Assembly: GCA_001275005.1 (NCBI GenBank)
Contig: JWZX01002471.1
Coordinates: 1 to 26,795, forward strand
Length of the DNA stretch: 26,795 nucleotides
Source of the DNA: Chrysochromulina tobinii
Taxonomy: Eukaryota; Haptophyta; Prymnesiales; Chrysochromulinaceae
Direction of reading: 5' to 3'
In this document: positions 10,526-26,795 of the stretch, piece by piece
How the letters are laid out: each line of letters begins with the position of its first letter
How positions within the stretch are numbered: position 1 is the first letter of the stretch
Translations under genes and position numbers: made by a program
Notes under the pieces: model-generated
Databases searched by the model: none
Told to the model about the DNA's origin: nothing
What the model saw: only the letters and a program-made list of their open reading frames with translations

Positions 10526-12739
10526 ATGCCTCCTGTCAAGGTACATACCAAAGGGGCTGCTGCCAACAAAGCAGGAAGCCAACCGAACAATCGTGGCGGC
10601 GAGCCCGCCGGCTTCCCCCCCAAGAAGCAGTCCCAAGAGGCTGCGCCATCCATGGCTGCGCCGTCCAAGCAGCTCACCGCCAAGGAGCGCGAGGAGCTGA
10701 CGCAGCTCAAGACGTACACGCGATGGTGGCACGCGACGCTCCAGCAGGCGCGCAACGCCGAGCACACAGTCACCGACCTGTCCAAGGATCTTGCAACGGG
10801 CATCGTGCCAGTCGCCCTTATGGAGGTGCTCACACGCGCGGAGATCAAGCACAACAAGGAGCCCAAGAACCGCATCAAGCAGATGGAGAACATCGCCATC
10901 TTCATCCGGCAGCTCAAAACGCTCGGCATCCCGAGCGCCAACATGAGCGCGGAAGACCTGGCCGACGGCAAGAAGCACCTGATGCTCACCCTCACGTGGA
11001 ATCTGATCGTCCACTTTGCGCCCAGCAGCAAGGAGGCGGCGCTCGCGGACGACCAGCTGCGATGGATGCAGTCGAACACGAAGGGGTACGCCCGCGTCGA
11101 CGTCTCGGGCTGGGCTGGGCTGTGCGACGGGCGCGCGCTGTGCGCCGTCCTCCATCGATACGATCCCTCTGCCCTTGACTTCGACGCGCTCCCCGATGCG
11201 GATGCCGATGGCGCCGCCCTCGCGTCGATGGAGATCGCCTTCGAAACGGCGGAGCGAAAATTCGGCGCGCCGCGGCTGCTCGAGGCGGCGGATGTGGCGC
11301 TCGCCCTCGACCCCTCCATGAAGTTGCTCGCTGCCGACGCAACGTCTGCCGCGGATGGCGCGCCCGAGCTGCGCTCGATGATCACGTACCTTCTCTCTCT
11401 GCGCCAAGCGCTCCGACAGCATCGCGACGCACGTGCGAAGGAGGTGGCCGGCAGGTGCGCCGCCTTTGTCTCGGATGCGGAAGCGCTCGGCGCGTGGGTG
11501 CTCGACGCGACGCAAATTCAGCTCGACCGCACGGTGATCGCACACGGTTTTGATCGCACCAGCAAGGAGGAGGTCGCCGACGCCGACCGCATGCTCTCGC
11601 AACTCGAGGACGGCTTCCGAGGTACAGAGAAGGTGGCGCAGCAGAAGAAACGCTCGGAGCTCGCGCAGCTGCGCCTGCCCGCCATTTCGCGCACGCTCGT
11701 CGAGAATGAAGAGGCGGACAAGCGCTTCAAGCACCGCATGCCCGGCGAGAAGGAGAGCGCACCGGCGCCCGGTGCGCCGTTGAGTGCCGTTGAGCGCGGC
11801 GCCGCCGCCAACGCGGAGAGTCCTGCGTTTGTGGTCGAGTCGGCAGCGGCGGCGATAGCCAAGCTCGACAGCACACTCAGGACACTCGCCACGGCCTGGG
11901 CAAAGCTCGAGGCCGCTGAAGAGGGCCTGTCGGTGGCACTCTGGCTCGTGCTGGTTGAGAAGAAGACGGATCTGATGGTGAAGGAGGTACTGGTTGAGGC
12001 CAAGAAGCTCGAGGACCTTGCCATCGGCTGGGCTGAAAAGATGGAGAGCGAGCAAGAGCTCCCCGTGCTCAAGTTTGACGATCGGAATGAGGCTGAGCGC
12101 GTGTGGCCCCCTGAAGCTGGCGACTCGGCAGCGGCGCTCGCGCAGGGCGTGCATGTTCTCGAGCTTTGGAGTGCGACGGGCACCGATGACTGCGTGAGCG
12201 CCCTCGATGATCGACGCTCCGCGTGTGTCGCCCTCATGAACGAAGCATCGCGCCGAAGGAACGAGGAGGGGCGTCCCTTGGCAGCCGTCCAAGCCACCGC
12301 TCCACGTGGAGGAAGATCTTCGCCGCCCCTCCACATGGAGATGGAGGACGTGCTGAACGTGGAACACAAGCTTGAGGTGGCTTGGCTCGAAATGAATGAG
12401 GCGGCCGCCGAGCTGCAGACCAAGCTGCACGAGATGCTCAAGTGGCAGCGCACCCAGCTCGAGAGCACGAGCACGCGCCTCGCCTCGGCGCACAAGAAGC
12501 TCGGGAAGCTGCGACCAGAAATGGTGAAGCAAAGCTGGTTCGGAGCGCCCGAGCCGACTCGGGCTCCGCCGCCGGCCACCCCCGAGGAGCAGTCGCCGCC
12601 CAAGCCCGGCGGCAAGCCCAACGGCAAGGCTGAGCCAAAACCGTCTTCGGCAGGCCCAGGGTTCAAGGGCGACGGGGCGGTGGTCGATACGAAAGTGAAG
12701 GTGACGGTGCAGGAGGAGAAGGGGTGCGCCATCCTGTAG
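10526..12739 (+). CDS. Alpha-actinin-like protein: two calponin-homology domains, helical rod and C-terminal CaaX box
   Basis: I chose the ATG at 10526 (MPPVKVHTKG), giving 737 residues; an upstream in-frame ATG at 10247 adds only low-complexity sequence and overlaps the divergent promoter. CH1 (about 62-166) has NRIKQMENIAIFIRQLKTLG and the ending LTLTWNLIVHF. CH2 (about 174-297) has GWAGLCDGRALCAVLHRYDP and ends in a Leu-rich helix, as in the tandem actin-binding domain of alpha-actinin, spectrin and cortexillin. Residues 298-670 are helical and charged, spectrin-like or coiled-coil, interrupted near 405-435. Residues 675-715 are Pro/Lys-rich. The last four residues are CAIL (C734-L737), a CaaX prenylation box; Leu at the end favours geranylgeranylation. 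Inferred role is a membrane-attached actin crosslinker or cortical anchor. No EF-hands are present, unlike classical alpha-actinin. Confidence 0.8.
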   Translation: MPPVKVHTKGAAANKAGSQPNNRGGEPAGFPPKKQSQEAAPSMAAPSKQLTAKEREELTQLKTYTRWWHATLQQARNAEHTVTDLSKDLATGIVPVALMEVLTRAEIKHNKEPKNRIKQMENIAIFIRQLKTLGIPSANMSAEDLADGKKHLMLTLTWNLIVHFAPSSKEAALADDQLRWMQSNTKGYARVDVSGWAGLCDGRALCAVLHRYDPSALDFDALPDADADGAALASMEIAFETAERKFGAPRLLEAADVALALDPSMKLLAADATSAADGAPELRSMITYLLSLRQALRQHRDARAKEVAGRCAAFVSDAEALGAWVLDATQIQLDRTVIAHGFDRTSKEEVADADRMLSQLEDGFRGTEKVAQQKKRSELAQLRLPAISRTLVENEEADKRFKHRMPGEKESAPAPGAPLSAVERGAAANAESPAFVVESAAAAIAKLDSTLRTLATAWAKLEAAEEGLSVALWLVLVEKKTDLMVKEVLVEAKKLEDLAIGWAEKMESEQELPVLKFDDRNEAERVWPPEAGDSAAALAQGVHVLELWSATGTDDCVSALDDRRSACVALMNEASRRRNEEGRPLAAVQATAPRGGRSSPPLHMEMEDVLNVEHKLEVAWLEMNEAAAELQTKLHEMLKWQRTQLESTSTRLASAHKKLGKLRPEMVKQSWFGAPEPTRAPPPATPEEQSPPKPGGKPNGKAEPKPSSAGPGFKGDGAVVDTKVKVTVQEEKGCAIL

Positions 12740-13501
12740 AGCTCTAAATGCGGAGTGACTAGGGGGCATCTCTCGAATGCCGTCGGTGTGCGGCTTGCCG
12801 TCGGAGTGGCTTGCCTTCGGAGAGCGCATGCATGGCTACCCGCGTGTGAAGGAGGCACGTGGCGATCCGCGACCACATCGGACACGCGAAGAGAGGTAGA
12901 AGAGAGGCTCCTAGTGTTGGGTGGGTGGGGCACGAAGACGCTGGACTTGAGCATGCGGCAGCACTCGGCGGCGGCACGCAATAGCAACCACACGGCTAGC
13001 GCAAGAGATCATATTAAGATCATACGACCTATCATGGTCCATGCGGCGGCGGGGCATGGATAAGGCATGCCGAGCGCACCTCGCTCCTCGGAGCACGCAC
13101 AAGCGACGAACACGCGTACACACGACAACGTAATCGGGGTGAGCTAGGGGTGACAAGCCTTGTCTTCAAGGCCCGAACCTCAAGCGTGAAGCCTCAAGGG
13201 CGCCGATTTGTATTTATTAGAACTCTTCTTTTACACGCGGGTCGGGGGCCTTCGGGGACAATCGGACTAGATCGCGTCGGAGCGGCGCCTTGGTTAGTCG
13301 CCTTAACCGAATTTTAGCATCATCAACACGGCACACCCGCGACCTGAGACCAGAGCACACATGTGAGTCGTGACACGGTGGCCGACTATAATTGCTGCGC
13401 ATTTGCAACATCTACACGCCCAGCAGCTGCAACTGAGACGCACTCCTCGGCCCCCAGCGCTCAACAGTGACCAGCAGGCGCGGCTACACACGCAATGGTC
13501 G
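12740..13501. other. Convergent intergenic region
   Basis: This interval lies between the ends of the plus-strand CH-domain gene and the minus-strand EF-hand gene. It should contain both 3' UTRs. On the minus strand AATAAA occurs at 13218-13213, the only clear polyadenylation-like hexamer I saw, about 285 bp past the EF-hand gene's stop. No coding sequence, tRNA or other RNA gene is supported. Confidence 0.4.
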
Positions 13502-16039
13502 TCATCCCTCTCCCTTCACCTTTCGGCTGCGGACGGCTTCCTGGATGTGTTTCCATCCCTTGGCCTGCCGCACGATCTCACCAAACTCGTGGAAGTCGAC
13601 GCTGCCGAACGGTTGCTCCACATCCGCCATGCCTATCATCGCGCTCGCCTCCGCGTCCGCGACGGCGGCATTGAGCCCCAACTGCGAAGCAAGATACTTG
13701 CTCACCTCTTCTGCCTCGATGGTTCCGGTCTTGTCGAGATCGATGTTGTCGAAGACGGCGCGCAGCTTCGAGGGGTCCTCTGAGTCGAGGCTAGACCCCA
13801 TCTTAGCGAGACCAGTGGCGGCGAGAGCCTTCCAGGACTTCATCACGTGCGTGCGGTTGGGGTTGCGGACGGCTTGTTGGATTTGCGTCGCTGCCTTGGC
13901 CTGCCGAACAATCTCTGAAAACTCATGGAAGTCGACGCTGCCGAACGGTTGCTCCACATCCGCCATGCCTATCATCGCACTCGCCTCCGCGTCCGCGACG
14001 TCGGCATTGAGCCCCAACTGCGAAGCAAGATACTTGCTCACCTCTTCTGCCTCGATGGTTCCGGTCTTGTCGAGATCGATGTTGTCGAAGACGGCGCGCA
14101 GCTTCGAGGGGTCCTCTGAGTCGAGGCTAGACCCCATCTTAGCGAGACCAGTGGCGGCGAGAGCCTTCCAGGACTTCATCACGTGCTTCACGTCCGGCAC
14201 AGTGTGCTCGCGCGGTGAGATCATGAACGCGAGCAGAAACTCCTGGAGAGCCCGCACCGTGAGATCGGACTCCTGCGAAAGGCCGAAGAGGATGGGCATG
14301 CCCCCCATCAGACCGGTCACCTCGAGCGTGGTGGCGCCCTGCTCTTTGAGGAACACTTGAAGCGCGCACACCGCCTTCATGTTCCACTCCGGCCACGAAG
14401 GGGTGAGCAGCGGCGGCGTGGCCCCATGCACGTTGAGGAAGCGCTTGAGCGCCGATTGCAGCGCGGCGTCCCACGGCGCGTCGGGCAATTCTCGGTCCGT
14501 CATGGCTGGATCCGAGCCGGGGGTCCGTGGGGATCCTGCTGTCGCCTCCTCCAGTTTCTGGATGCCGCCGTCGCCTCTTCTACCCCCGCCGCACAACATG
14601 TGCGACGCCACATAGTCGAGTGCCGATGGAGGCGCGGTATCGGGCAGCGTGTCAAGCTCCCACTTGACCGTCTTCTTGGCGGGCACGGTGAAAGGGAACG
14701 AGAAGAGCCCCGAGCTGCGCTCTCTGCGTCTCGAGCCTCGGCTACCGTCGCTGACCTTGGCCGTCGTGGGGCTGAGCACGCGGAGCAGCTGGGTGAATGG
14801 GTGGGTGCCATGGAGAGAGTATTGATAGAAGCCGTTTGCATGCAGGAAGGCGGCGAGTGGGCCTTGGGCCGAACCTAGCTGGCCGTCGAGAAAGATGCCC
14901 TTTGACGGCCATTGGAACTTGCTAATGAACGCTGACGTACCTAGCGCCGCCGCTTCCGCCGCCGATGGCGCCGCCGCTTCCGACGCCGGTGACGCCCCCG
15001 CGAGCCTCAGCGGCCCGCTCGCGGTCATCATCAAGGACGTCCACCACGAAGGAATCGTCATCGCATCCTCGGCGGCTTCCTCTTCGACTTGGGACTCTCG
15101 GAGGTACCGGTACGGCCGTCGATAGGGAGATACGCGTGGTTCGCGCTTCCTGGCTTCTGCGCCGCGGCTCACGCTCCCGCCGTCCGAGGTGACTGGAGTA
15201 GCATCGAGTACCTGGAGCGCTTCTGGGCTGTCCGAGGGCATGTCCGGCGACGGCGCCCGGCACTTGTCGCGCGCAAAGGCGAAGGCGTCGGCCTCCTTGG
15301 TGAACACTGCGTGCGGCTGGAGCGGCTGGCCGATCGAGAGGATCATGTTGGCGGTCGAGCGCGTCATCATCGTCGAGAGTACGATTGCGAACCCGTGCGA
15401 GAGCTGCCGCAGTCTGTTCCGTCGTGTCTGGTACCATTCTGAGATCTGCTTGAGGTGCGCGAGGGAGGGCAGGCTCGCACAGCGCACGTCGAAGAGCGCT
15501 GTGAAGGGCTTGCCGTATGCGAGTGCCACGTCGACGGCCGAAAGCATGTGCACGATGCTCGGCGCGTCGATCGCCTTCTCGTTCCACCGCAGGCAAAGCC
15601 GCGGGAGAGGCAGCGCAGGGTCCTGCTCCAAGGTGAGTTGGCCACAGCAAAAGTCGAGCGGGCCGACGAGGATACTGGAAGTCTCACTGGCAGCTGCCGC
15701 TGCCGCGAAGCCGAGGTCAAGCGGGTCCATCTTCGACGGGTCCGTGGCAGCCGCTGCGGTCACTCCAACGGCAGGCGCGGCGGCCTCTTCAGCTTCTTCT
15801 GCATCTTCACGCTCGGTTTTCTCGTCGGGCCCTGGGACTGGGTTCCTGGAGGACGTCCGTGGGACGCCGCGCTCGAGCATCTTCGGGGGCTTGGGGTACT
15901 CGGACGAGAACGAGAACTCTGGTGATGAGCCAAGAAACATCGCGCGACCCAGCGCGACCTGGACGTCGTGGCGCAGACCGTTAGCCCATTTTTGGAACAA
16001 CATATAGACGTTCTTTTGATAGCGAGGAGTTGCATGCAT
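13502..16039 (-). CDS. EF-hand protein with duplicated C-terminal module and STAS-like/PG-binding-like middle regions
   Basis: The frame is open to 16381 but the upstream part overlaps the next gene, so I take the ATG at 16039 (MHATPRYQKN), giving 845 residues. Residues about 140-258 (PFTALFDVRCASLPSLAHL through ADAFAFARDKC) have a STAS/SpoIIAA-like strand-helix pattern; this is tentative. Residues about 540-640 carry three degenerate ALQ-x-FL repeats (ALKRFLNVHGA, ALQVFLKEQGA, ALQEFLLAF) resembling peptidoglycan-binding-type helical repeats. The C-terminus has two nearly identical 112-residue modules. Each has one canonical EF-hand loop, DLDKTGTIEAEE (about 655-666 and 767-778), and one degenerate loop, DVEQPFGSVDFHE, one residue too long. 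Each module ends in a helix with an IQ-like pattern. Expected role is calcium sensing. The protein as a whole is unrecognised. The next gene's stop is only 118 bp upstream of this start. Confidence 0.7.
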   Translation of the reverse strand: MHATPRYQKNVYMLFQKWANGLRHDVQVALGRAMFLGSSPEFSFSSEYPKPPKMLERGVPRTSSRNPVPGPDEKTEREDAEEAEEAAAPAVGVTAAAATDPSKMDPLDLGFAAAAAASETSSILVGPLDFCCGQLTLEQDPALPLPRLCLRWNEKAIDAPSIVHMLSAVDVALAYGKPFTALFDVRCASLPSLAHLKQISEWYQTRRNRLRQLSHGFAIVLSTMMTRSTANMILSIGQPLQPHAVFTKEADAFAFARDKCRAPSPDMPSDSPEALQVLDATPVTSDGGSVSRGAEARKREPRVSPYRRPYRYLRESQVEEEAAEDAMTIPSWWTSLMMTASGPLRLAGASPASEAAAPSAAEAAALGTSAFISKFQWPSKGIFLDGQLGSAQGPLAAFLHANGFYQYSLHGTHPFTQLLRVLSPTTAKVSDGSRGSRRRERSSGLFSFPFTVPAKKTVKWELDTLPDTAPPSALDYVASHMLCGGGRRGDGGIQKLEEATAGSPRTPGSDPAMTDRELPDAPWDAALQSALKRFLNVHGATPPLLTPSWPEWNMKAVCALQVFLKEQGATTLEVTGLMGGMPILFGLSQESDLTVRALQEFLLAFMISPREHTVPDVKHVMKSWKALAATGLAKMGSSLDSEDPSKLRAVFDNIDLDKTGTIEAEEVSKYLASQLGLNADVADAEASAMIGMADVEQPFGSVDFHEFSEIVRQAKAATQIQQAVRNPNRTHVMKSWKALAATGLAKMGSSLDSEDPSKLRAVFDNIDLDKTGTIEAEEVSKYLASQLGLNAAVADAEASAMIGMADVEQPFGSVDFHEFGEIVRQAKGWKHIQEAVRSRKVKGEG
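13591..14186 (-). repeat. 336-bp in-frame tandem duplication of an EF-hand module
   Basis: The segments 13591-13850 and 13927-14186 match base for base except two positions (one silent, one Ala/Asp). The offset is exactly 336 bp, or 112 codons. Homology extends at lower identity through 13556-13590 and 13892-13926. The near-identity indicates recent duplication or ongoing gene conversion. Confidence 0.95.
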
Positions 16040-16157
16040 CCCACGTACATGTAGAAGCGGCCGTCGATTGTCCCTCAGCGCGTCGCTGTCCCTTTGGGTT
16101 AACCCATGTGTTAACCTTTGGGTTGAGGTACCTCCGACCTTCCTACCTACACGCACC
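16040..16157 (-). promoter_or_regulatory. Short intergenic region with GGGTTAACCC palindrome
   Basis: This 118-bp gap between two same-strand genes holds a perfect 10-bp palindrome at 16096-16105, a second GTTAACC at 16110-16116 and a repeated TTTGGGTT (16093 and 16117). The position, about 55-85 bp upstream of the EF-hand gene's ATG, fits a promoter element. No factor can be named. Confidence 0.3.
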
Positions 16158-19073
16158 TTATTCTGAACCAATTGGTGCGGCGACGTGTTCCAGAACACAG
16201 CCTTTTCTCTTCGGCCAGCGAAGGGCAAAGAAGCCACCCCGTGGCTCCCCGGCATGACGCTGAGGAGGCTGTTCGGCAACTCCGTCGCTCTCTGGCCAGT
16301 GCTCCGCCCCTGGCAGCGACAGTCGAAGCTGCCCCTCGGTCTTCGCGTCGCGCCCAAAGCCGGTAAGCCTCCATGTCTCATCTCGGCCGCCCGCCCGCAC
16401 GAGCTGCTCCGAGGGCGCCACCAAGTGCTCCCACGAGAGGGGCACCGATTTCGTCGAGAGTCGCTCGGCTACCTCGGTATGCACAGGGTCGGCGCCCAGA
16501 GGCAGCCAGTGCAACCAAATATTGACCAGCAGAGTCACGCGAGGTGGCGAGGCCTCCGCTGTCCCCTCCGCCGCTCCCGCTCGGACCGTCACCACCGCCC
16601 CCTCCCCTGCAGCATGCGCTGTGCGCCCCTCTCTGGCGCGTTTCGAGCCGCTCAGGCGCGGTCGCGCGGCGAGCGCCGCAGGCGCGCCGTGCAGCAGTCG
16701 GCCATCGAAGGCCAGGTGCCATCCGGGCTGTGGGTAGCATGCATGCGCGCTGCGTACGGGCCCAGAGCACGCCCCTGCCACATCGGCCGCATGGAGAGGC
16801 GAGGCGACAGGGAGCACGACCGTTGGCGCGCCGCCTTCGGCAGAGAGATATGTCACGGTCGCGAGGTGGGGATGCACGCACACGCCCTCTTCGTGATGAA
16901 GCTCGTAATCGCGGTCGAAATGAAAGCCAATGTCGCGGCTGCTTTCGACCACTTGAGTCCACCACTCGGCGCCCGACCGTCGCGCATCGAACCGCTGACC
17001 GGCGGTGTGATGCCGGAAGATGTCGAGGACGAGCCTCTCCAGAGCACTCGTTGGCTTTGTGTGGGCGCCCACCCAGTAGGTCGCATTCGTCTCGTACGGC
17101 ACCCCTAGCCGGCGCGTGTGCGCCTTCACCTTGAGATACGCCGCGGTGCAGTCGCGCACGAGTCTGGGGATCGCGTGATCAGGGACGATGGCCCGCCACA
17201 CGCGCGTTGAGAAGTCCATCTGGGGATGCTCGGATTCGTCCTCGTCGCCTTCCTCGCCGTCGCCGGACGTGGTGCGTCCGTCCTCGTCAACAGTGAGCTC
17301 AGGCACGCCCTCCTCCTCCTCGCCCTCCTCCTCGCCCTCCTCCTCGCCCTCCTCCTCCTCGCCCTCCTTCTCGTCCTCCTCCTCCCTCTCCTCGCCCTGC
17401 TCCTCGCCCTCATCGCCCTCCTCCTCGCCCTCCTCGCCGCCCTCCTCGCCCTCCTCGCCCTCCTCGCCCTCCTCCTCGCCTCCCTCCTCGCCCTCGCCCT
17501 TCGCCAAGTGCACGAGCACCCCATGCTCGAGCAAGCTCCCCACGAGCTCAAACAGGTCGCCCGCCCGCTCGCCGTCCGCCGCCGCCTCGAGCACTCCGAG
17601 CCGCACGCCCCGACAGCCCGCCTCGAGCAACTGAATGACGGAGCGCGCCAAGCTGGGGAGCACTTCAAACGCCGGGCTCGCGTCGCCCGAGAGCGCACGC
17701 GCGTTGCGCACGTTGGTGAAGAGCGCGAGCTCGGGTACGGCGCCCTGGCCCACCTGCCACGCCACCAGCTCGCCGTTGGTGTGGGCGAGGTCGACTAGCC
17801 GCGCACAGTACGGCGCTCGGAGTCGCACGCGGCTCGTGCCGTCAAGGGCGAGTGGCTGCTCGACGGGTGCGGGGGGCACGGCTGCTGGGGCGGTCGCCTC
17901 GGCGAGCGTGCTGAGCGGCGGCGCGTCCATGGGCGGCAGAGAGTGCAGCAGATAGCGCAGGCTGAGGGCATCGAGAGCGCGACCGAGTGTGCCATCTTCC
18001 CACAACTCTAACGTGAGCCAAAAGGGCACGTGCGGCGGCGTGAACGCCCCCGCGCACAGCTCCCAGCCCTTGCGAGGCGACCCAGCGCATTGGGAGCGGA
18101 GCAGACCCAGGGGCAGTGTGCGAAGCAACCCAAACGGCCGAAGCACGTCCGCGTCGTCGTGGGCGTCCGCGTCGTCGTGGGCGCCCGCGTCGTCGTGGGC
18201 GCCCGCGTCGTGCGCCTCCTGCCGCGGGCCGGCGAGTGCGGCGAGCGCGGCCCGGGCGCGCTTGGACAAGGGCAGCGTTTCGTCCTCGACGAGCAGGTCG
18301 CGCCAGGTGTGCCGCTGGTAGGTCGAGAAGGTGAGATGGAGTGAGTGGCCTGAGCGCTGCGCTAACGCTTGGTGCACCACGCCGCGAGGCAGGTAGAGCA
18401 CGTCACCCGGCCGTAGAGTAAGCTCCTGCGTGGGCGCACCGAGCTCAGCGGCTCGAAACTCAGTCGTGCGGTTCGCTGCCGGGTTCGTGCAAGCGTCCGG
18501 TCGGTCATAGAGCCGCCAGCGCTTTGATCCTTCGAGCTGGATGACAAAGACCTCGACGTCGTCGTAGTGCGGCGGAAAGCCCTGCGAACCGGCAGGCGTC
18601 AGGTACGCCGCGCATCCGACCGGGTGGCCGAAGTGCTCCTGTAGGCACGAGCAGAGCTCAAACGAGGCCTGGTGCCACTGCTGCGGCTGCACGAGCCGAA
18701 TCGAATAGCCGCCAGAGGAGAAAGCTTTCCACACCACGTCGGCATCGACCTCGCCATCGCCACCGTTCAGTGCGGAGCGCTTTCCGTCGACGTACTTGGT
18801 CACGTCCACATCGCGAAGAAATCGGGCTGGCCGCGGCTCCCTGCGCCTCACCAGTGCCTTGACATCTGCAAGCGTGAGCATCTTTGAAGGACTACCAGCC
18901 GGCGATGGCTTCTCCGTGCATCGCACTAGCAGCGGCTTCTGCAAAAAGTACATTTGATGGAATTGTGCGGTTGGCATCTGCAGCAGGTTGGCGAGCATGC
19001 GTGATCCGCGGTCCTCGACGTCGGCTTCGGATCCACCCAGGCCGCGGCTCCACCATGCGATAGCCGATCGCAT
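16158..19073 (-). CDS. NO66/RIOX1-type JmjC oxygenase fused to a second 2-oxoglutarate oxygenase-like domain
   Basis: The 971-residue protein has an ATG at 19073. Residues about 30-265 match the ribosomal-oxygenase JmjC family closely: YFLQKPLLV, GCAAYLTPAGSQGFPPHYDD (iron ligands H169, D171), VIQLEGSKRWRLY, LRPGDVLYLPRGVVHQA (H234) and HSLHLTFSTYQRHTWRDLL. In animals this family hydroxylates a histidine of a large-subunit ribosomal protein. Residues 290-520 correspond to the dimerisation and winged-helix region, here with a His-Asp-Asp-Ala repeat (288-309). A Glu/Gly-rich acidic linker spans about 525-615. Residues 620-862 look like another double-stranded beta-helix oxygenase: GFHFDRD (H718, D720), HLATVTYLS, LAFDGRLLHGAP (H795) and RVTLLVNIW (R845, candidate 2-oxoglutarate anchor). 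The fusion is one unbroken frame. Nuclear/nucleolar action is inferred from the family. Confidence 0.85.
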   Translation of the reverse strand: MRSAIAWWSRGLGGSEADVEDRGSRMLANLLQMPTAQFHQMYFLQKPLLVRCTEKPSPAGSPSKMLTLADVKALVRRREPRPARFLRDVDVTKYVDGKRSALNGGDGEVDADVVWKAFSSGGYSIRLVQPQQWHQASFELCSCLQEHFGHPVGCAAYLTPAGSQGFPPHYDDVEVFVIQLEGSKRWRLYDRPDACTNPAANRTTEFRAAELGAPTQELTLRPGDVLYLPRGVVHQALAQRSGHSLHLTFSTYQRHTWRDLLVEDETLPLSKRARAALAALAGPRQEAHDAGAHDDAGAHDDADAHDDADVLRPFGLLRTLPLGLLRSQCAGSPRKGWELCAGAFTPPHVPFWLTLELWEDGTLGRALDALSLRYLLHSLPPMDAPPLSTLAEATAPAAVPPAPVEQPLALDGTSRVRLRAPYCARLVDLAHTNGELVAWQVGQGAVPELALFTNVRNARALSGDASPAFEVLPSLARSVIQLLEAGCRGVRLGVLEAAADGERAGDLFELVGSLLEHGVLVHLAKGEGEEGGEEEGEEGEEGEEGGEEGEEEGDEGEEQGEEREEEDEKEGEEEEGEEEGEEEGEEEEGVPELTVDEDGRTTSGDGEEGDEDESEHPQMDFSTRVWRAIVPDHAIPRLVRDCTAAYLKVKAHTRRLGVPYETNATYWVGAHTKPTSALERLVLDIFRHHTAGQRFDARRSGAEWWTQVVESSRDIGFHFDRDYELHHEEGVCVHPHLATVTYLSAEGGAPTVVLPVASPLHAADVAGACSGPVRSAHACYPQPGWHLAFDGRLLHGAPAALAARPRLSGSKRAREGRTAHAAGEGAVVTVRAGAAEGTAEASPPRVTLLVNIWLHWLPLGADPVHTEVAERLSTKSVPLSWEHLVAPSEQLVRAGGRDETWRLTGFGRDAKTEGQLRLSLPGAEHWPESDGVAEQPPQRHAGEPRGGFFALRWPKRKGCVLEHVAAPIGSE
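17290..17500. repeat. CTC-CTC-GCC microsatellite coding a Glu/Gly acidic linker
   Basis: Imperfect trinucleotide arrays (CTC, TCC, GCC) encode about 65 mostly Glu and Gly residues on the minus strand. This separates the JmjC part from the second oxygenase-like domain. The opposite-strand reading as poly-Leu or poly-Ser is spurious. Confidence 0.9.
18147..18216. repeat. 18-bp coding minisatellite
   Basis: About 3.5 copies of a GCGTCGTCGTGGGC-GYCC unit encode the AHDDAG/AHDDAD repeat in the oxygenase gene, between the JmjC domain and the following helical region. Copy number is likely to vary between strains. Confidence 0.9.
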
Positions 19074-19162
19074 CGTGTCACGTGAACGAAAAGTGAACGT
19101 TACCGGTAATTAACTTGACTGCTCGACAACCGGCACGGCGCGTTTGGTTACCGTCGTCCAAG
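19074..19162 (-). promoter_or_regulatory. 89-bp upstream gap with TAATTAA element
   Basis: TAATTAA at 19107-19113 sits 34 bp before the oxygenase gene's ATG, within GTTACCGGTAATTAAC, which is partly palindromic. The previous gene's stop is only 89 bp away, so the promoter must be compact or lie inside that gene. Confidence 0.25.
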
Positions 19163-20128
19163 TCACGGGACGCCTGTACCCGTAAAAAGACACCGGGGGG
19201 AGCCGGGGCACCGGAGGAGGCCGAAGGCAGTTTCAAAGCCCCGGCGTGTCCATGCCTCGCGGCATTCTGGGCGTTTCCAAGCATCGTAGGTCTTATTCAT
19301 CAGGAGAGCGGTAAAGAAGGCCGACTGCGGCGGGAAGCCAAAGCCGAGAAGCCCAGCGTAGAAGACGTCCGTGGACGCCACCGTGTCCTCCGAGTCCTCC
19401 TTCAGCCCAGCGATATCGTTGATGTGCGCATACAGCGGAGCCCGCGGCGCGCTAATGAGGGCCTCATCAGCCACCAGGTACAGGTCGGGGAAGAGCTCGC
19501 CCACGACCGAGTAGTTGAAGTGACGAGCGAGCCGCTTGAACGCCAGTCGCGAGCCGGAATGATAGCAGCTAAAGTCCCAACTGAACGACGGCTCGTATCG
19601 GATGATCTTGTCCTCGTGCAGTGGCACATGTGGATTCACCTCCACAATGATCACACGCGGTCGGTACTTGTGTGCAAGGATGGCGTGCAACACGTGCCAA
19701 TCGTTGCCATCGATATCCACCGAGAGCAGGTCGAAGGCCTTCGGGACCATGTGTTCCACGAACAGCTGGATGATGTTTTCTCTCGTGATGAAGTGCTGGG
19801 CGAGGTTCATGGACGGGTTGGCCACTCCGCCATCCATCATGAGGCCATCCCAACCACAGTCCAGTCGAAGCGTTCGCGAGTTGCAGGACAGTCCATCCTG
19901 CGTGCCGAACTCCACGAAGAAGCGATTTGTCGTGCCGAGATCCTCAAATAACTTCCAAATCATTCCGTCGGCGCCAAGTTGAGAGAAGGTCCTTCCGTTC
20001 CACCGCGGCAGTCTTGGCTCTGAGGAGCTTTGGGCCGCTGTGTGTAGCCCCGGCAAAAACGGCGGCCTGCTGCACGTCTCGTGCCTCTGCGGGGAGGACG
20101 CGACAGCCGTCCAGGTTCTCTTGTCCAT
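19163..20128 (-). CDS. Star-like FkbM-type methyltransferase
   Basis: The protein has 321 residues from an ATG at 20128. It reads FSQLGADGMIWKLFEDLG (48-65), then motif I FFVEFGTQDG (70-79), the strand-2 acidic residue in WDGLMMDG (D99), DLLSVDIDGNDWHVL (133-147) and RVIIVEVNPHVP (158-169), followed by a Tyr-rich segment and FPDLYLV. This arrangement matches the FkbM/Star-like methyltransferase group, which is longer than bare FkbM domains and differs from the two other copies in the window. The first 45 residues are poorly conserved in character; a weak targeting function is possible but no clear signal peptide is seen. Substrate is unknown. It lies 361 bp downstream of the giant membrane-protein gene and 89 bp upstream of the oxygenase gene, on the same strand. 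Confidence 0.8.
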   Translation of the reverse strand: MDKRTWTAVASSPQRHETCSRPPFLPGLHTAAQSSSEPRLPRWNGRTFSQLGADGMIWKLFEDLGTTNRFFVEFGTQDGLSCNSRTLRLDCGWDGLMMDGGVANPSMNLAQHFITRENIIQLFVEHMVPKAFDLLSVDIDGNDWHVLHAILAHKYRPRVIIVEVNPHVPLHEDKIIRYEPSFSWDFSCYHSGSRLAFKRLARHFNYSVVGELFPDLYLVADEALISAPRAPLYAHINDIAGLKEDSEDTVASTDVFYAGLLGFGFPPQSAFFTALLMNKTYDAWKRPECREAWTRRGFETAFGLLRCPGSPRCLFTGTGVP

Positions 20129-20489: not shown

Positions 20490-23400
20490 TCAGCGCGTCA
20501 ATCTCGATGTGCCTTCGACATTCGCCTCGCCAGAGCGATCGTCGACTATAGCTCTGGTCCTCGTGCCACCGCAAGGACTGATTTCGGAGCCAGGACTGGC
20601 ACTGGACCGACCGTCACTGGTACTGGTGTCGGCGTCAGCATCGGGGCCGTGCCCGTTGGTGTCGGTCGCGGCTGGGACAGAGGAGAGGTCAATACCGGCG
20701 GCCTCGCCGCTTCTCTTGCGCGGCGCCGCTACGGCAGGCGCGGCGGCGGCGGCACACGGGGGCGCAGGCGCGAGGGAAGGCGGCACCGAACTGCGGTCGG
20801 AGCGGGGAAAGTGCATGTGCTGCCTGATGTTGGTCTTCCAGCTCCAGTGGAGAGCTTTCTCATCGCCCGGTGCGGCAGCTGCAGACGGCAGCGGCGATGG
20901 CAGCGGCACATTGAACGCTCCAGGTACCGGCATCGCGTGAGGCATCGGCTTGGCCCGCACCAGGTAGAACTCTGGCACGGTCGTCCGCTCCGTGAGCCGC
21001 GCATGCCGATGACGCACCGAGCTCTCGGTGCGTCCCGGCAGAAGCTCAGTAATCATGCGCCATTGATTGCCAAAGCGTGCCGCCGCCTCCAGAATAATGG
21101 CATCCTCTCGAGGCGAAAACAAACTCGGGGCTGCGTTTTGCACCTTCGCGGCGTGCACGCACGGCGCACTGTTCGCAATGCTCTGCTGCACGCCCGACGA
21201 AATGCTCGCAACCATCGAGAAGTCCAACTGTCGATTCTTGACTCGCTGCCAGCGATTGCGAACGCTGTCTGCGGAGCGAGTTCCGATTGCTGCCGCCACG
21301 ACGTTCCAGTCGGTGCCATGCTGCAACACGGCGCGGGCTATGGCTTCGTCATGAGCGGCGGTCCAGCGCACCCTGCGGACGACATCATGTCGCTCTTCGT
21401 CGATCACTTCAAGAGAAGCATCCCCAAGAGAAGCCTTCGCAGCTCGCAAGGTCATGCCTGTCTCCGAGCCCACATCCGAGCCCACATCCGAGCCCGCCGC
21501 CGAGCTACCGTCACCACCAAGATGGCCCCGCTCACTCCCAGCCCCACCGCCGTTGCTGCCACAAAGACTGCTACCGCTACAGGTGGGTGGGCCGGGCGGG
21601 ATCGAGTTGGGTGGCGACTCGGACGGCGGCTGTGGAGCCTCAGGCAGCGCAGGACTCTGAGTTCCGAAGCGGTGTTTGAGCATATGCAAGTCGAGCTGAG
21701 CGCGGTCGCGCGAGTCTCGAAAATTGTCGGCCAGGCGGCGAAGGCGGCGACGCGAGACGCACGCGAACAGGAATGCTAGAAGTGAAAGAAGCACAAGCCC
21801 GGCAAAAAGCCCCCCCTGCCACTTGAGGCCTACGTCAACGAAGGCGACGTCAAAGAAGGAATTGGACGGGAGCGGTGGGCTCGACGGCGGCGGCAGCGGT
21901 ACCGCGGCGCCTGGCGGGCAGAAGCTGCCCCGCTCGCAAGGCAAGCACGCGGGCCCAAAGAGGCCGCCATACGGAGCGTACGTGCCCGGCGAGCAGTCGA
22001 CACAGAATGTGCCAGCCTCGCCTTGGCGCTTGCCAATAGGGCAGGCAGTGCACTCGGCGCCTCCCACAGAGCGGTCGTAGCCGGGCTTGCAGGGGGAGCA
22101 TTCGCCGCGGACATTGAGCTCCGTGTGCTCTTCGCACTCGTAGCAGATATCGAAATGGTCATCGCGGCGTGAGGAGGGAGCGGGGCAACGGACGCATCCG
22201 TTGCCAAAGAGGCTGCGTGCAGTGCCAGGCTGAGAGCATCTGATAAAGGGCAGAAGACGGCTAGCTCTGCCTACGTGTCCAAGCAGCACGTCGAGGTCGC
22301 CGTCGCCGTCCACGTCCGCCGCCGCGATCGACCTCGTGTACGCGCTTCCGCCGGGCAGCTCAATGCTCGTCGGGAACGTGCCGTCGCCCGCGTTGAGCAG
22401 CACGCGGCTGGGACTGCCGTCGATCCCAAGCATCAAGTCCAGGTCGCCATCGCCGTTGACGTCCGCCGCCGCGATCGAGTACGTGGAAGCGCCGCCACCG
22501 GGCAGCTCGATGCTCGTCGGGAACGTGCCGTCGCCCGCGTTGAGCAGCACGCGGCTAGGACTGTTAAAGTTCCCAAGAAGCACGTCGAGGTCGCCGTCGC
22601 CGTCCACGTCCGCCGCCGCGATCGAGCTCGTGGACGCGCCGCCGCCGGGAAGCTCGACGCTCGTCGGGAAGGTGCCATCGCCCGCGTTGAGCAGCACGCG
22701 GCTGGGACTGCCGTCGTTCCCAAGCAGCACGTCGAGGTCGCCGTCGCCGTCCACGTCCGCCGCCGCAATCGAGCTTGTGTACGCGCTTCCGCCGGGCAGC
22801 TCGATGCTCGTCGGGAACGTGCCGTCGCCCGCGTTGAGCAGCACTCTGCTGGGCCTGCCAGCGACCCCAAGCAGCACGTCGAGGTCGCCGTCGCCGTCCA
22901 CGTCCGCTGCCGCGATCGAGTACACGATCGAGGACGCGATCGACCGTCTGCCACCAAGAAGCACGTCGAGGTCGCCATCGCCGTCGCCGTCGGCGTCCGC
23001 CGCCGCGATCGAGCGCGTGTTCATGCCGCCGCCGGGCAGCTCGACGCTCGTCGGGAACGTGCCATCGCCTGCGTTGAGCAGCACTCGGCTGGGACTGTCT
23101 ACGTTCCCAAGAAGCACGTCGAGGTCGCCGTCGCCGTCCACGTCCGCCGCCGCGATCGAGCTTGTGTACGCGCTTCCGCCGGGCAGCTTGATGCTCGTCG
23201 GGAACGTGCCGTCGCCCGCGTTGAGCAGCACTCTAGAACTGCCGTCGTTCCCAAGCAGCACGTCGAGGTCGCCGTCGCCGTCCACGTCCGCCGCCGCGAT
23301 CGAGTACGTGGACGCGCTGCCGCCGGGCAGCTCGATGCTCGTCGGGAATGTACCGTCGCCCACGATGAGCAGCACGCGGCTGGGACTGCCGTCGTTCCCA

Positions 23401-26129
23401 AGCAGCACATCGAGGTCGCCGTCGCCGTCCACGTCCGCCGCCGCGATCGAGTTTGTGGACGCGTTGCCGCCGGGCAGCTCGATGCTCGTCGGGAAGGTGC
23501 CTCCGCCCGCGTTGAGCAGCACCCGGCTGGGACTGCCATAGTTTCCAAGCAGCACGTCGAGGTCGCCGTCGCCGTCCACGTCCGCCGCTGCGATAAACAG
23601 CGTGTCCCCGCTGCCGCCGGGCAGCTCGATGCTCGTCGGGAAGGTGCCGTCGCCCGCGTTGAGCAGCACCCGGTTGGGCCTGCCAGCGTTCCCAAGCAGC
23701 ACGTCGAGGTCGCCGTCGCCGTCCATGTCCGCCGCCGCGATCGACCACGTGAACGTGTCCGCGCTGCCGCCAGGCAGCTCGATGCTCGTCGGGAAGGTGC
23801 CGTCGCCCGCGTTGAGCAGCACCCGGCTGGGGCCATTGTTCCCACGTAGCACGTCAAGGTCGCCATCGCCGTCCACGTCCGCCGCCGCGATCGACCACGT
23901 GGATTCGGTGCTGCCGCCGGGCAGCTCGATGCTCGTCGGGAAGGTGCCTTCGCCCGCGTTGAGCAGCACCTTGTTGGGAGTCCTACTTGTGACACTACTA
24001 GCCGATTGTTCCCTGTTCCCAAGCAGCACATCAAGGTCGCCGTCGCCGTCCACGTCCGCCGCCGCGATCGACCACGTGTTCGCGATTTCACTGCCGCCGG
24101 GCAGCTCGATGCTTGTCGGAAAGGTGCCGTCGCCCGCGTTGAGCAGCACTCGGCTGAAACCGAAGTTCCCAAGCAGCATGTCGAGGTCGCCGTCGCCGTC
24201 CACGTCCGCCGCCGCGATCGAGCGCGTCATCGCGCTGCCGCCGGGCAGCTCGATGCTCGTCGGGAAGGTGCCGTCGCCCGCGTTGAGCAGCACCCGGCTG
24301 GGACTGCCAGAGTTCCCAAGCAGCACGTCGAGGTCGCCGTCGCCGTCCACGTCCGCCGCTGCCATCGACCACGTGTCCGCGCTGCCGCCGGGCAGCTCGA
24401 TGCTCGTCGGGAAGGTGCCTCCGCCCGCGTTGAGCAGCACTTGGCTGGGACTGCCATAGTTCCCAAGCAGCACGTCGAGGTCGCCGTCGCCGTCCACGTC
24501 CGCCGCCGCGATCGAGGCCGTGTACGCGCTGCTGCCGGGCAGCTCGATGCTCGTCGGGAAGGTGCCGCCGCCCGCGTTGAGCAGCACTTGGCTGGGACTG
24601 CCATAGTTCCCTAGCAGCACGTCGAGGTCGCCGTCGCCGTCCACGTCCGCCGCCGCGATCGAGACCGTTTGCACGCTGCCGCCGGGCAGGTCGGAGCTGC
24701 GAAACTGGATCACGACCTCAGTGCTGCCCAGTAGCTCTCCTCCTGTCCTCGCCATTGGCTTGGGCAGGCGCAGGCATCCGGTCTCGTTGCTCAAGGGGCA
24801 TGCCGGCGGCAAGAGCGCAGCTCTGACTCCTGGCGCGGGCTTCGGACGGGCGGGCCTGGGCATGGCGACGCAGCCCACTCGCCCTGGTGCCGAGCAGTTG
24901 GGCGGTGCGAACGCCGTCGGGTGGCCGCCAGGCCGGAGGTCATGCGCATAGTCCCGCGGTGGAGGGGTCCGCCGTTGGCGACCAGCTACGTTCCGTGCCT
25001 CAAGAGCCCAGCCAGGCTGAGCCGGTTTGGGCGGCTGAGCTGGTGGTACCGGCGGTGACGGCGGCGGCGGCGGCGGTGACGGCGGCGGCGGCGACGGCGA
25101 CGGCGGCGGCGGCGACGGCGGCGACGGCGGCGGCGGTGATGGGGGCGGCTCGGGTGACGGTGATGTCTGCGCGCTGGCGAAGCCCACTACCAGGGTGAGG
25201 AAGAGCACGCCGACGAGCCGAGGAGCGGACCCAAAGCGGCCCGCAGAGCAGCGCCGAGCAGAGGGTCGGCACGAGGGAGAGGCGGCGCTGACGGCACGGC
25301 GGCCTTTGGGCGGCCCCGGGATTGAGGCGAGGGCCGAGGCGCCAAGGTGCGCCGCAAAGGCCTGGACGGCACCGTACAGTACCGCGCAGAGCAGACCGAG
25401 CATTGCCAGCATGCAAGTGCTCCCCACGGCGCCCCCCCCGCCCCTCTCCCCACAGGCGCAGAGCAGACCGAGCCTTGCCAGCAGACCGGGAAGAGGGGCC
25501 GGGGCCATCGCGAGAACGGAGGCGCCCATCGTGGACGAGCGCGTCTGCGGCAAGGAAGCCGGATCCGTCTCGTGCGCGGCCCCCGCAATGTCGATGGTGT
25601 TCTTTGCCTTGAAGGCATCGGTCTCAGGCAGCCAGCCCAGATAGCTGATGATCGAGACCATCAGCGTCGTCTGGATGTCATCGAGCGTCGTGTGCAACTT
25701 GGCGCCCGTCGACGTCATGTCGGAGAGCGACTTGGCCGCGACGCGCGCCTTGAGGGTCTCGAGAGAGCCGCGCGTGCAGGCTGGCACCGCGCCGGACGTC
25801 GTCGTGGAGAAGGTGTCGAATAGGGGGGCGGTCTCGGCAGCCACTTGCACATTCATCGGCCCATTGGCCAGAGAATAGCCGTGGGAAGAGACCCCGTTGA
25901 CAGTGATGAAGTCGTAGCCGTCCTCGGTGGCAAACTCGTTGGAGGCAAACTCGGTGGCGCAGTCACAATCCGAGGCATACCCAGGAGCACCGATGCACGT
26001 GTTCGCGCACTGCTGCGCATCGGCGAAGCTCATCATCAAGAGGAGGAAGAGGATGCGGGCGAGCCGAGGCGCGGCCCCGACGCGGCCGACCGAGCGGCGC
26101 CAAGCAGAGTGGTCTGGCGTGGTCTCCAT
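20490..26129 (-). CDS. Predicted membrane-tethered Myb transcription factor with FG-GAP repeat ectodomain
   Basis: One frame, first ATG at 26129, encodes 1879 residues. A hydrophobic signal-like segment ends FADAQ (24-39). A Cys-containing region follows, then further hydrophobic stretches (about 216-262, 303-319), the last ending FASAQ like a second signal. Next come a Ser/Pro extensin-like stalk (322-372), 17 repeats of about 49 residues with the calcium-loop core DVDGDGDLD (485-1297), six CxxC pairs resembling GCC2/GCC3 or EGF-like modules (1298-1404), a transmembrane helix GLFAGLVLLSLLAFLFACV (1440-1458) and a basic stop-transfer SRRRLRR. On the cytoplasmic side a linker leads to two Myb repeats. 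Repeat 1 has W1589, W1608, W1627 and repeat 2 has F1671, W1690, H1709, all with 18-residue spacing. The 43-residue gap between them is unusual for R2R3 Myb. A Pro/Ala/Ser tail contains APRKRSG. Release by proteolysis is inferred. An undetected intron or gene junction in the linker is the main alternative. Confidence 0.8.
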   Translation of the reverse strand: METTPDHSAWRRSVGRVGAAPRLARILFLLLMMSFADAQQCANTCIGAPGYASDCDCATEFASNEFATEDGYDFITVNGVSSHGYSLANGPMNVQVAAETAPLFDTFSTTTSGAVPACTRGSLETLKARVAAKSLSDMTSTGAKLHTTLDDIQTTLMVSIISYLGWLPETDAFKAKNTIDIAGAAHETDPASLPQTRSSTMGASVLAMAPAPLPGLLARLGLLCACGERGGGGAVGSTCMLAMLGLLCAVLYGAVQAFAAHLGASALASIPGPPKGRRAVSAASPSCRPSARRCSAGRFGSAPRLVGVLFLTLVVGFASAQTSPSPEPPPSPPPPSPPSPPPPSPSPPPPSPPPPPPSPPVPPAQPPKPAQPGWALEARNVAGRQRRTPPPRDYAHDLRPGGHPTAFAPPNCSAPGRVGCVAMPRPARPKPAPGVRAALLPPACPLSNETGCLRLPKPMARTGGELLGSTEVVIQFRSSDLPGGSVQTVSIAAADVDGDGDLDVLLGNYGSPSQVLLNAGGGTFPTSIELPGSSAYTASIAAADVDGDGDLDVLLGNYGSPSQVLLNAGGGTFPTSIELPGGSADTWSMAAADVDGDGDLDVLLGNSGSPSRVLLNAGDGTFPTSIELPGGSAMTRSIAAADVDGDGDLDMLLGNFGFSRVLLNAGDGTFPTSIELPGGSEIANTWSIAAADVDGDGDLDVLLGNREQSASSVTSRTPNKVLLNAGEGTFPTSIELPGGSTESTWSIAAADVDGDGDLDVLRGNNGPSRVLLNAGDGTFPTSIELPGGSADTFTWSIAAADMDGDGDLDVLLGNAGRPNRVLLNAGDGTFPTSIELPGGSGDTLFIAAADVDGDGDLDVLLGNYGSPSRVLLNAGGGTFPTSIELPGGNASTNSIAAADVDGDGDLDVLLGNDGSPSRVLLIVGDGTFPTSIELPGGSASTYSIAAADVDGDGDLDVLLGNDGSSRVLLNAGDGTFPTSIKLPGGSAYTSSIAAADVDGDGDLDVLLGNVDSPSRVLLNAGDGTFPTSVELPGGGMNTRSIAAADADGDGDGDLDVLLGGRRSIASSIVYSIAAADVDGDGDLDVLLGVAGRPSRVLLNAGDGTFPTSIELPGGSAYTSSIAAADVDGDGDLDVLLGNDGSPSRVLLNAGDGTFPTSVELPGGGASTSSIAAADVDGDGDLDVLLGNFNSPSRVLLNAGDGTFPTSIELPGGGASTYSIAAADVNGDGDLDLMLGIDGSPSRVLLNAGDGTFPTSIELPGGSAYTRSIAAADVDGDGDLDVLLGHVGRASRLLPFIRCSQPGTARSLFGNGCVRCPAPSSRRDDHFDICYECEEHTELNVRGECSPCKPGYDRSVGGAECTACPIGKRQGEAGTFCVDCSPGTYAPYGGLFGPACLPCERGSFCPPGAAVPLPPPSSPPLPSNSFFDVAFVDVGLKWQGGLFAGLVLLSLLAFLFACVSRRRLRRLADNFRDSRDRAQLDLHMLKHRFGTQSPALPEAPQPPSESPPNSIPPGPPTCSGSSLCGSNGGGAGSERGHLGGDGSSAAGSDVGSDVGSETGMTLRAAKASLGDASLEVIDEERHDVVRRVRWTAAHDEAIARAVLQHGTDWNVVAAAIGTRSADSVRNRWQRVKNRQLDFSMVASISSGVQQSIANSAPCVHAAKVQNAAPSLFSPREDAIILEAAARFGNQWRMITELLPGRTESSVRHRHARLTERTTVPEFYLVRAKPMPHAMPVPGAFNVPLPSPLPSAAAAPGDEKALHWSWKTNIRQHMHFPRSDRSSVPPSLAPAPPCAAAAAPAVAAPRKRSGEAAGIDLSSVPAATDTNGHGPDADADTSTSDGRSSASPGSEISPCGGTRTRAIVDDRSGEANVEGTSRLTR
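22276..24700 (-). repeat. Tandem array of 17 FG-GAP/VCBS-like coding repeats
   Basis: The unit is about 147 bp (49 codons), with a core encoding SIAAADVDGDGDLDVLLGN then RVLLNAGDGTFPTSIELPGG. Fifteen units are full length. The twelfth from the N-terminus lacks the second half, and the seventeenth ends early into the Cys-rich region. The fifth carries an insertion (REQSASSVTSRTPN). Nucleotide identity between units is very high, so the array is young or homogenised. Confidence 0.95.
25039..25166. repeat. GGC/GAC microsatellite coding the Ser/Pro stalk
   Basis: Long runs of GGCGGCGGTGAC-type triplets encode the SPPPPSPP extensin-like segment on the minus strand, just after the internal signal-like sequence. 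On the other strand it reads as poly-Ala/Thr, which I do not regard as coding. Confidence 0.85.
25167..25261 (-). repeat. Internal copy of the signal-peptide-coding segment (pairs with 26013-26107)
   Basis: The 95 bp align without gaps to 26013-26107 at roughly three-quarters identity, in the same reading frame and 846 bp apart. They encode GSAPRLVGVLFLTLVVGFAS versus GAAPRLARILFLLLMMSFAD, each followed by Ala-Gln. A further 28-bp repeat (25384-25411 and 25456-25483) encoding LGLLCA lies between them. Confidence 0.85.
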
Positions 26130-26795
26130 CAGCGCAAGCAAGGCGCGGGCCCAAGGAGTCTTCAAACATTCGAATGATTTTCCCGAGGAATGAAACGTTG
26201 CGGATTTAGAACGCTATTTTGGTGCTGGCAGGAAAGCGAGGGTATTGCTAATTATAAAACTAAAGTTTAGTGGTGGCGGCGTCTGAGGGAAATTCACGAG
26301 GTGCGACGACCAGGCTCGTAAAGAAGAAGTGCACCAGGGGGGTGACCACGGGGGAGCATGGTGTGGGGAGCACGGGGGGAGCATGGGGGGAGCAGCGCAG
26401 CAGGTGCTGGTAGCTGGAAGCCGTGTGGAGAGCAGCAGCAGCAGGATGGTTTGGGCGGGGAGGATGGTTTGGGCGGGGAGCGGGGGGGTTGTTAACTTGT
26501 TATCGGGGTCTGGGCGTCGGCGGCTTGGATGGCGGTGGATTGGGGTGTCTCAGAGTTTCGCGAAATTTAGAGAAAAATTTGCCAGAAGCGCCGCAGGCGC
26601 CGAAATTTTTCGATATTTGCCACTCACCGCTCCACTTGCCTCCCAAGCACCCGAAGTACACATGTACCGGATAATCATCGAAAGGTACATGTATGGCCCC
26701 CGGTCAGGGTCACTAGGTGGACATTTCAGAGACATCTCAGACAGTACCTGACCTCAAACTGTCTCGCCATCTTCGCAACTTCGGCCCAGCCCCCC
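26130..26795 (-). other. Upstream region of the giant membrane-protein gene
   Basis: TAATTATAAAA lies at 26249-26259, about 120-130 bp before the ATG at 26129, and is the best TATA-like element in the window; it matches TATAAAA on the plus strand and TTTTATAAT on the minus. G-runs at 26337-26391 could form a G-quadruplex. An 18-bp unit is repeated twice at about 26443-26478. A perfect 9-bp inverted repeat (ACATGTACC/GGTACATGT) occupies 26660-26668 and 26684-26692. The plus-strand open frames here have biased composition and no recognisable domain, so I call no gene. Confidence 0.4.

Follow-up and report, generated by a model that had tools for sequence, protein, structure and literature searches.

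Can a single algal protein reach from the cell surface to DNA? Eukaryotic receptors usually reach genes via relays, and a reading frame in the haptophyte Chrysochromulina tobinii, described in an earlier note from its letters alone as an FG-GAP adhesion ectodomain joined across one membrane helix to two Myb repeats, raises the question of a more direct route. The window, meaning the whole 26,795-nucleotide stretch of DNA analysed here, is contig C1324 of a 53.15-Mb genome in 2,253 contigs; draft genomes of freshwater Chrysochromulina isolates are put at 59 and 65 Mb in a passage of PMC9878933.

Layout of the reading frame

The minus-strand frame is unbroken over 1,891 codons (Table 1), and translation, Pfam, motif counting and hydropathy recover the Pro-rich stalk, 17 calcium-loop FG-GAP repeats, six CxxC pairs and single membrane helix that the earlier note had listed. 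Pfam matches in the frame are FG-GAP_3 (E 4.2e-154, 15 stretches), FG-GAP (1.4e-65, 16 stretches), Myb_DNA-binding (1.3e-21, 2 stretches) and, on the calcium loops again, Dockerin_1 (5.4e-13). A recognised DNA-binding domain and a transmembrane (TM) helix, the latter from hydropathy, lie within one coding frame. Residues 490-1300 of the ectodomain are strongly acidic (pI 4.05, net charge -98) and rich in calcium loops. The C-terminus is predicted to be cytosolic because RRRLRR follows the TM helix, positive residues marking the cytosolic side under the positive-inside rule, and the signal-like segments ahead of the helix agree with this topology.

Table 1. Features of the receptor-Myb reading frame, with positions in the window
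Feature	Positions	Strand	Basis
Whole ORF, 1,891 codons, first ATG at 26129	20490..26165	-	translation
Signal-peptide-like segment 1, core LARILFLLLMMSFADA	26025..26081	-	hydropathy; putative signal peptide
Signal-peptide-like segment 2, resembling segment 1 and one in kinase receptor P0005	25170..25226	-	hydropathy, similarity
Pro-rich stalk	25011..25160	-	translation
17 FG-GAP/VCBS-like calcium-loop repeats, spacing mostly 49 residues	22266..24698	-	Pfam and motif count
Cys-rich membrane-proximal domain, six CxxC pairs, common to FG-GAP kinase receptors	21924..22238	-	motif count, comparison
Domain-swap joint, residues 1425/1426	21890..21891	-	similarity to FG-GAP kinase receptors stops, to SBBP-Myb proteins starts
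Transmembrane helix (residues 1449-1474), then RRRLRR	21744..21821	-	strongest hydrophobic helix by hydropathy; alignment
Conserved juxtamembrane (jx) helix RLADNFRDSRDRAQLDLHMLKHRF	21666..21743	-	alignment, genome matches
Acidic Gly/Ser-rich linker, net -9, from jx helix to Myb1	21378..21665	-	composition
PNSIPPGPP linker motif; third-position changes dominate among paralogues	21585..21611	-	codon comparison
Myb repeat 1, VRNRW recognition-helix pattern as in soluble relatives	21240..21374	-	Pfam, comparison
Myb repeat 2, SVRHRH in an altered recognition helix	21006..21119	-	Pfam, comparison
RKR...GIDL.S.P tail motif, invariant in 7 aligned sequences	20673..20720	-	alignment; candidate nuclear localisation signal

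The signal sequence proposed earlier is present as a signal-like segment, but there are two such segments, similar to each other and ~280 residues apart in one frame, the first after the first ATG and the second just before the Pro-rich stalk, so the true start of the ORF is uncertain. The order of ectodomain, TM helix and Myb repeats is unaffected by this. The paired segments (25170-26081) could stem from duplication at the 5' end or from use of an alternative first exon.

The Myb repeats score 76.9 bits over two stretches against a curated PF00249 cut-off of 24.4 and so belong to that family. The aromatic spacing that had been taken as correct in both holds fully for Myb1, which also keeps SVRNRW, but Myb2 has a histidine where the third aromatic should be and reads SVRHRH, a recognition helix from which the canonical W and N are gone. 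Canonical R2R3-MYB proteins have adjacent repeats, aromatic triads and K/R-N recognition residues in both repeats; we rejected that class for a protein whose matched repeats lie 40 residues apart and whose Myb2 lacks the N and the third W. Both repeats are basic (pI 11.9 and 11.2), and the closest solved chains are the DNA-binding Mybs c-Myb (3.6e-17) and MYB21 (2.8e-15). The tail is loose apart from the pattern RKR..E..GIDL.S.P, which all seven aligned sequences share unchanged and which could be a nuclear localisation signal.

Elsewhere in the window, an 830-codon plus-strand ORF with a CH domain overlaps a 776-codon minus-strand ORF without a Pfam match (10247-12829), and adjoining minus-strand ORFs at 13502-20128 carry EF-hands, JmjC_2 and a sub-cut-off FkbM methyltransferase match. 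Rfam at gathering thresholds matched nothing anywhere in the window.

Two halves and their relatives

A protein search with residues 1380-1720, in which the 7,984 candidates with the most shared words were scored, returned at least five proteins: P0002 (propeller-TM-Myb), P0003-P0005 (FG-GAP and kinase domains) and P0006. FG-GAP_3 matches lie on at least 23 contigs of the genome (150 of 320 candidates scored), and only C1324 and C1197 among these are also among the Myb matches listed, which number at least 122 (150 of 158 candidates scored). On eight contigs we followed the pieces after the last FG-GAP repeats. Six (C930, C672, C1490, C2200, C249 and C280) run via a TM helix into a kinase, called by Pfam for C930 and C672 (PK_Tyr_Ser-Thr in both) and by eye for the other four; the C2253 and C989 pieces are still in Cys-rich sequence at their ends, short of the gene end. 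The window protein has the FG-GAP and Cys-rich ectodomain that defines these receptor kinases, with no kinase domain among its Pfam matches at E<=1. These receptor kinases and the JGI proteins P0003-P0005 share this ectodomain with it but have their own TM helix and a kinase where it has the Myb module. An integrin alpha-like receptor was also considered and rejected: integrin alpha has a seven-repeat FG-GAP propeller and integrin alpha domains, whereas the window protein has 17 near-identical repeats and the integrin family is not among its Pfam matches.

The place of the join can be narrowed from both sides. Against nine kinase receptors, residues 1300-1424 are 68-100% identical per 25-residue segment in seven, with an earlier fall-off in C1490 (past 1376) and in C930 (past 1400). 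The local match stops exactly at 1425 in four of the nine (C672, C2200, P0003 and P0004), stops at 1376 in C1490 and straggles past 1425 at <=36% in the other four (C930, C249, C280 and P0005). The match to P0009 begins at 1426 and continues at 56-100% per segment, and that to P0008 rises from 12-24% from residue 1368 to 56-100% after 1425. Because kinase-receptor identity stops at ~1425 and SBBP-Myb identity starts at ~1426, the window gene is, on these alignments, a domain swap in the Pro-rich stretch that is predicted to lie outside the cell ahead of the membrane helix, with a kinase-receptor ectodomain on one side and a membrane-Myb module on the other. Going beyond the earlier note, the alignments thus assign the ectodomain to a kinase-receptor family and place the Myb module behind another ectodomain as well.

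The same joint is found at a second locus, C1197, which makes an assembly chimera unlikely. There, FG-GAP repeats, Cys-rich domain, TM helix, jx helix, linker and two Myb repeats follow one another in one 1,405-codon ORF, 90% identical to the window protein over 416 residues, with both frames open up to the tail; no signal segment was seen in this ORF. Past ATDT (L039 near 1816), the C1197 tail is in a frame different from that of the window gene and P0008, so the last residues differ.

In C2150, the TM helix, jx helix, linker and two Myb repeats lie in one ORF behind an SBBP-type propeller. A search with P0002 gave 14 proteins, of which P0002, P0007, P0008 and P0009 share the TM helix, jx helix, linker and both Myb repeats; the remaining ten, with Myb domains in their Pfam lists, are covered over 14-40% only. 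The two halves are not always separate genes in homologues: TM helix and Myb repeats share one ORF in all six relatives with the module that we examined (C1197, C2150, P0002, P0007, P0008 and P0009), which are fewer than six independent cases and include database proteins that are ORF calls, biased toward open frames. Near-identity pairs P0007 with C2150 and P0009 with P0008, leaving two groups among P0002, P0007-P0009 and C2150. Aligned identity to the window gene is 83-84% for P0008 and P0009 and 42% for P0002, P0007 and C2150. These five SBBP-propeller proteins have the TM helix, jx helix, linker and both Myb repeats in common with the window gene but differ in their propeller, in having no Cys-rich domain and in showing no signal peptide in the same ORF. 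Because a signal peptide is absent from the same ORF in several SBBP-type relatives, the Myb protein C2150 included, the topology of these relatives is unproven. A search for an upstream signal-peptide exon of C2150 gave weak candidates only; our simple signal scan missed C1755 and C741, in which a signal-like segment ahead of the propeller is visible by eye in the same ORF.

Searches of database proteins and viral contigs found no FG-GAP-TM-Myb protein outside the C. tobinii genome. A viral origin was rejected, one scan of viral contigs giving 56 pattern matches and zero relatives by tblastn. Five more distant Myb-pair relatives within the genome (C363, C829, C232, C2110 and C2161) have two spaced repeats without the TM module, and the hydropathy flags in C363 and C2161 are Ala-rich runs only. 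Other large Myb ORFs were rejected as receptors, the parts of C996 and C796 having no TM helix (hydropathy 1.8), C1856 none (1.6) and C2161 its Ala run only; C1401, C1083 and C1070 were left out of this comparison.

The membrane cassette across the genome

The earlier note had cited the jx helix as an argument against a gene boundary just after the membrane, and the helix proves to be a recurring sequence: a TM-jx-linker query matches 18 genomic loci, 17 of which include the TM helix, and each of the 18 ORFs was read at least in part. Four lead into DNA-binding domains, three of them Myb pairs (C1324, C1197 and C2150) and the fourth, in C1956, six C2H2 fingers after the TM-jx-PNSIPPGPP stretch (3.3e-31). 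In C1617 a U-box (6.2e-10) and Sel1 repeats (9.9e-13) come after TM-jx, and in C1633, without a TM helix, the jx-linker sequence follows a helicase. The other 12 have no cytosolic Pfam family above cut-off (all scanned, several loci being cut short). With Pfam at E<=1, the cytosolic ends of C2171, C1911, C973, C1503 and C1956 gave only sub-cut-off matches besides the C1956 fingers, the best being RING in C1956 (0.012) and Trypsin_2 in C2171 (0.021).

Outside the membrane, SBBP repeats are above cut-off in 11 of the 18 (C2150, C1503, C973, C1911, C2171, C741, C1755, C765, C1907, C2233 and C1770) and below it in C2019, and C1956 has similar repeats by eye. PNSIPPGPP is present in 12 of the 18 and missing in C1907, C2138, C2233 and C1770; C2019 has TIPPGPP, and C1617 stops at PNSIP.

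Several of these loci merit description in their own right. The C1956 protein (L041, C1956:27000-36000, ORF 1271-4585 minus) runs from propeller and TM helix to the six C2H2 fingers and the sub-cut-off RING; three ENA/JGI proteins match it at 99-100%, and 43% of the searched stretch aligns at 99% identity with gene model P0034 of Chrysochromulina parva. In C1617 (L022, ORF 1303-2652 plus), TM-jx breaks inside PNSIP ahead of the U-box and Sel1 repeats, which may be another effector or a mosaic. The C1633 helicase ORF (L021/P0006, PIF1-type in the P0006 Pfam list) enters the jx-linker without a TM helix, a mosaic hinting at recombination or mobile capture. Past residue ~700, C2171 (L046) has the same TM-jx sequence and then a weak trypsin-like C-terminus, the Trypsin_2 match being below cut-off.

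From sequence, the set is best read as one family of receptor-like proteins of modular build, a subset of which would be membrane-tethered transcription factors. A bolder version, which we advance tentatively and with rather less than even confidence, is that a family of receptors in freshwater haptophytes spans the way from surface to DNA within one protein, with FG-GAP or SBBP propellers on a standard TM/jx/PNSIPPGPP cassette and interchangeable effectors that include Myb pairs and a C2H2 array, the DNA-binding part being freed by intramembrane cleavage or exitron splicing and bypassing kinase relays.

Proposed working, alternatives and known systems

For the window gene itself, the reading that we favour, by a modest but real measure of confidence, is that the gene is real and encodes a type I single-pass membrane protein with the FG-GAP and Cys-rich ectodomain outside and the two Myb repeats inside. 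Built by joining an SBBP-type TM-jx-linker-Myb half to an FG-GAP receptor-kinase ectodomain, this protein would most likely act as a membrane-tethered transcription factor. At the ectodomain, binding or a change in calcium would lead to release of the cytosolic part from the membrane, and the freed Myb part would then move to the nucleus and bind DNA. Release might occur by intramembrane proteolysis or by exitron-like splicing. The genome encodes a presenilin (4.8e-65) and has nine rhomboid matches, so intramembrane cleavage is possible, although both enzyme types are common in eukaryotes and lend this route weak support. Several observations speak against the favoured reading: the degenerate recognition helix of Myb2, a C-terminal tail with no significant constraint, the small share of TM-jx matches that lead into recognised DNA-binding domains (4 of 18), and relatives, among them C1197, whose ORF shows no signal peptide.

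Splicing as the means of release, with an in-frame intron (exitron) removing the membrane segment to leave a soluble isoform with the DNA-binding domain, we regard as unlikely. Gene model P0034 lacks the last part of the propeller, the TM helix, the jx helix and the linker of the sister C2H2 gene, and the corresponding C. tobinii stretch, a possible exitron, is in frame, with a length of 561 nt that is divisible by three, and is bounded by GT and AG; skipping of TM segments by alternative splicing is also described for plant membrane-bound factors in part of PMC9237531. However, P0034 is a single model that may be an annotation artefact, and the Myb gene had no TM-less counterpart among the models seen. 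The omitted segment is moreover under protein-level constraint, so the unspliced form must matter too.

About equally improbable, in our estimate, is that the Myb repeats form a SANT-like protein-binding scaffold at the membrane and have no role in transcription. The altered Myb2 recognition helix would suit a scaffold, as would the cytosolic ends of most other TM-jx proteins, which have no recognised DNA-binding domain and in one case carry the U-box with Sel1 repeats. Yet SANT domains tend to be acidic, whereas both repeats here are basic; Myb1 keeps its recognition pattern, and a C2H2 version of the cassette protein exists.

The favoured reading of a working receptor-like protein can also be judged by coding constraint, measured between the window gene and C1197 over a 522-codon alignment (dN 0.042, dS 0.118). 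The tests were one-sided, on six segments and uncorrected, with the neutral expectation taken from the observed change spectrum (nonsynonymous fraction 0.715). From the TM helix to Myb2 there are 23 nonsynonymous and 25 synonymous changes (p=0.0005). The counts are 9 and 12 for TM helix, jx helix and linker (p=0.0085), 7 and 8 for jx helix and linker (p=0.046), 14 and 13 for both Myb repeats with the stretch between them (p=0.018) and 1 and 5 for the Cys-rich domain (p=0.011). In the C-terminal tail, with 22 and 13, constraint is not significant (p=0.15), and in the inter-Myb stretch alone dN (0.074) slightly exceeds dS (0.065). A functionless recent recombination mosaic, in which two gene halves were brought together through Pro-rich and repeat DNA and have drifted since in both copies, could explain the abrupt joint within Pro-rich sequence, the unconstrained tail, its different frame in C1197 and the existence of other mosaics (C1633, and C1617, where the linker motif is left midway for a U-box). 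But the two fused copies show purifying selection past the joint, part of which would predate the fusion if each copy arose by a fusion of its own, and neither frame is interrupted ahead of the tail; we hold a drifting mosaic to be quite improbable.

That no gene boundary separates the membrane helix from Myb1, as the earlier note had argued, is borne out by the selection test and by PNSIPPGPP. Among ten fetched full ORFs with the motif, two of them with one substitution each, pairwise differences at codon positions 1, 2 and 3 number 9, 9 and 107, the ORFs being related and the pairs non-independent; these changes fall mainly at the third position, a pattern which shows that translation extends past the membrane helix into this stretch. 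The jx helix has a weaker pattern (209, 126 and 226). Shuffling leaves the TM-to-Myb1 segment open in 3.0% of 20,000 trials for the window gene and in 2.1% for C2150, and the shuffling, purifying selection and codon pattern together speak against a chance ORF or two genes. Two genes or transcripts with an only apparent fusion are thus the least probable reading, for although the true start is uncertain and the gene is known here from genomic sequence, coding constraint spans the gap and all six module relatives examined keep TM helix and Myb repeats in one ORF.

If the favoured reading is true, a kinase end swapped for Myb repeats, with a C2H2 sister on the same cassette, would be a one-component design occurring naturally in a planktonic alga and would offer a test system for exchanging ectodomains and effectors around a fixed membrane and juxtamembrane cassette. 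It would resemble Notch in its large ectodomain, one TM helix and cytosolic part acting in the nucleus, but the intracellular domain of Notch itself carries no DNA-binding domain, and the parts are unrelated. Notch membership was rejected, since its hallmarks, an EGF/LNR ectodomain and ankyrin repeats, are absent from the Pfam matches.

Also comparable in principle are MYRF, SREBP, bZIP28 and the NAC-NTL factors, in which one protein tethers and then frees a DNA-binding domain (PMC13294678 and PMC9237531, in part), although their DNA-binding domains and lumenal parts are unlike those of the window gene. The 2026 screen of membrane-bound regulators covers vertebrates and is extended to NDT80-type proteins, and a term search of its main text gave zero occurrences of Myb, SANT, FG-GAP and haptophyte (PMC13294678). 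Among Myb proteins, a survey passage counts 65 predicted MYB-related membrane-bound factors in 14 plant species (PMC5694209), and a brown-algal MYB survey reports the TM helix as missing in most (PMC8854648). No FG-GAP-TM-Myb or SBBP-TM-Myb protein is among the literature matches listed, from a search mostly outside subscription papers. A close counterpart is maMYB (Arabidopsis AT5G45420), an ER membrane-bound R2R3-MYB open to proteolytic activation that emerges in land plants and, like the window protein, has a membrane anchor ahead of two C-terminal SANT/Myb repeats facing the cytosol; compared by description only, it differs in its two N-terminal membrane helices, and a large ectodomain is not mentioned in the relevant part of the source (PMC10180911). 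The window gene, if read correctly, would extend membrane-bound factors to haptophytes, a group with none among the literature matches listed. The principle of a membrane-bound MYB is already known from maMYB; what is new is the build, which is of receptor scale and has swappable parts.
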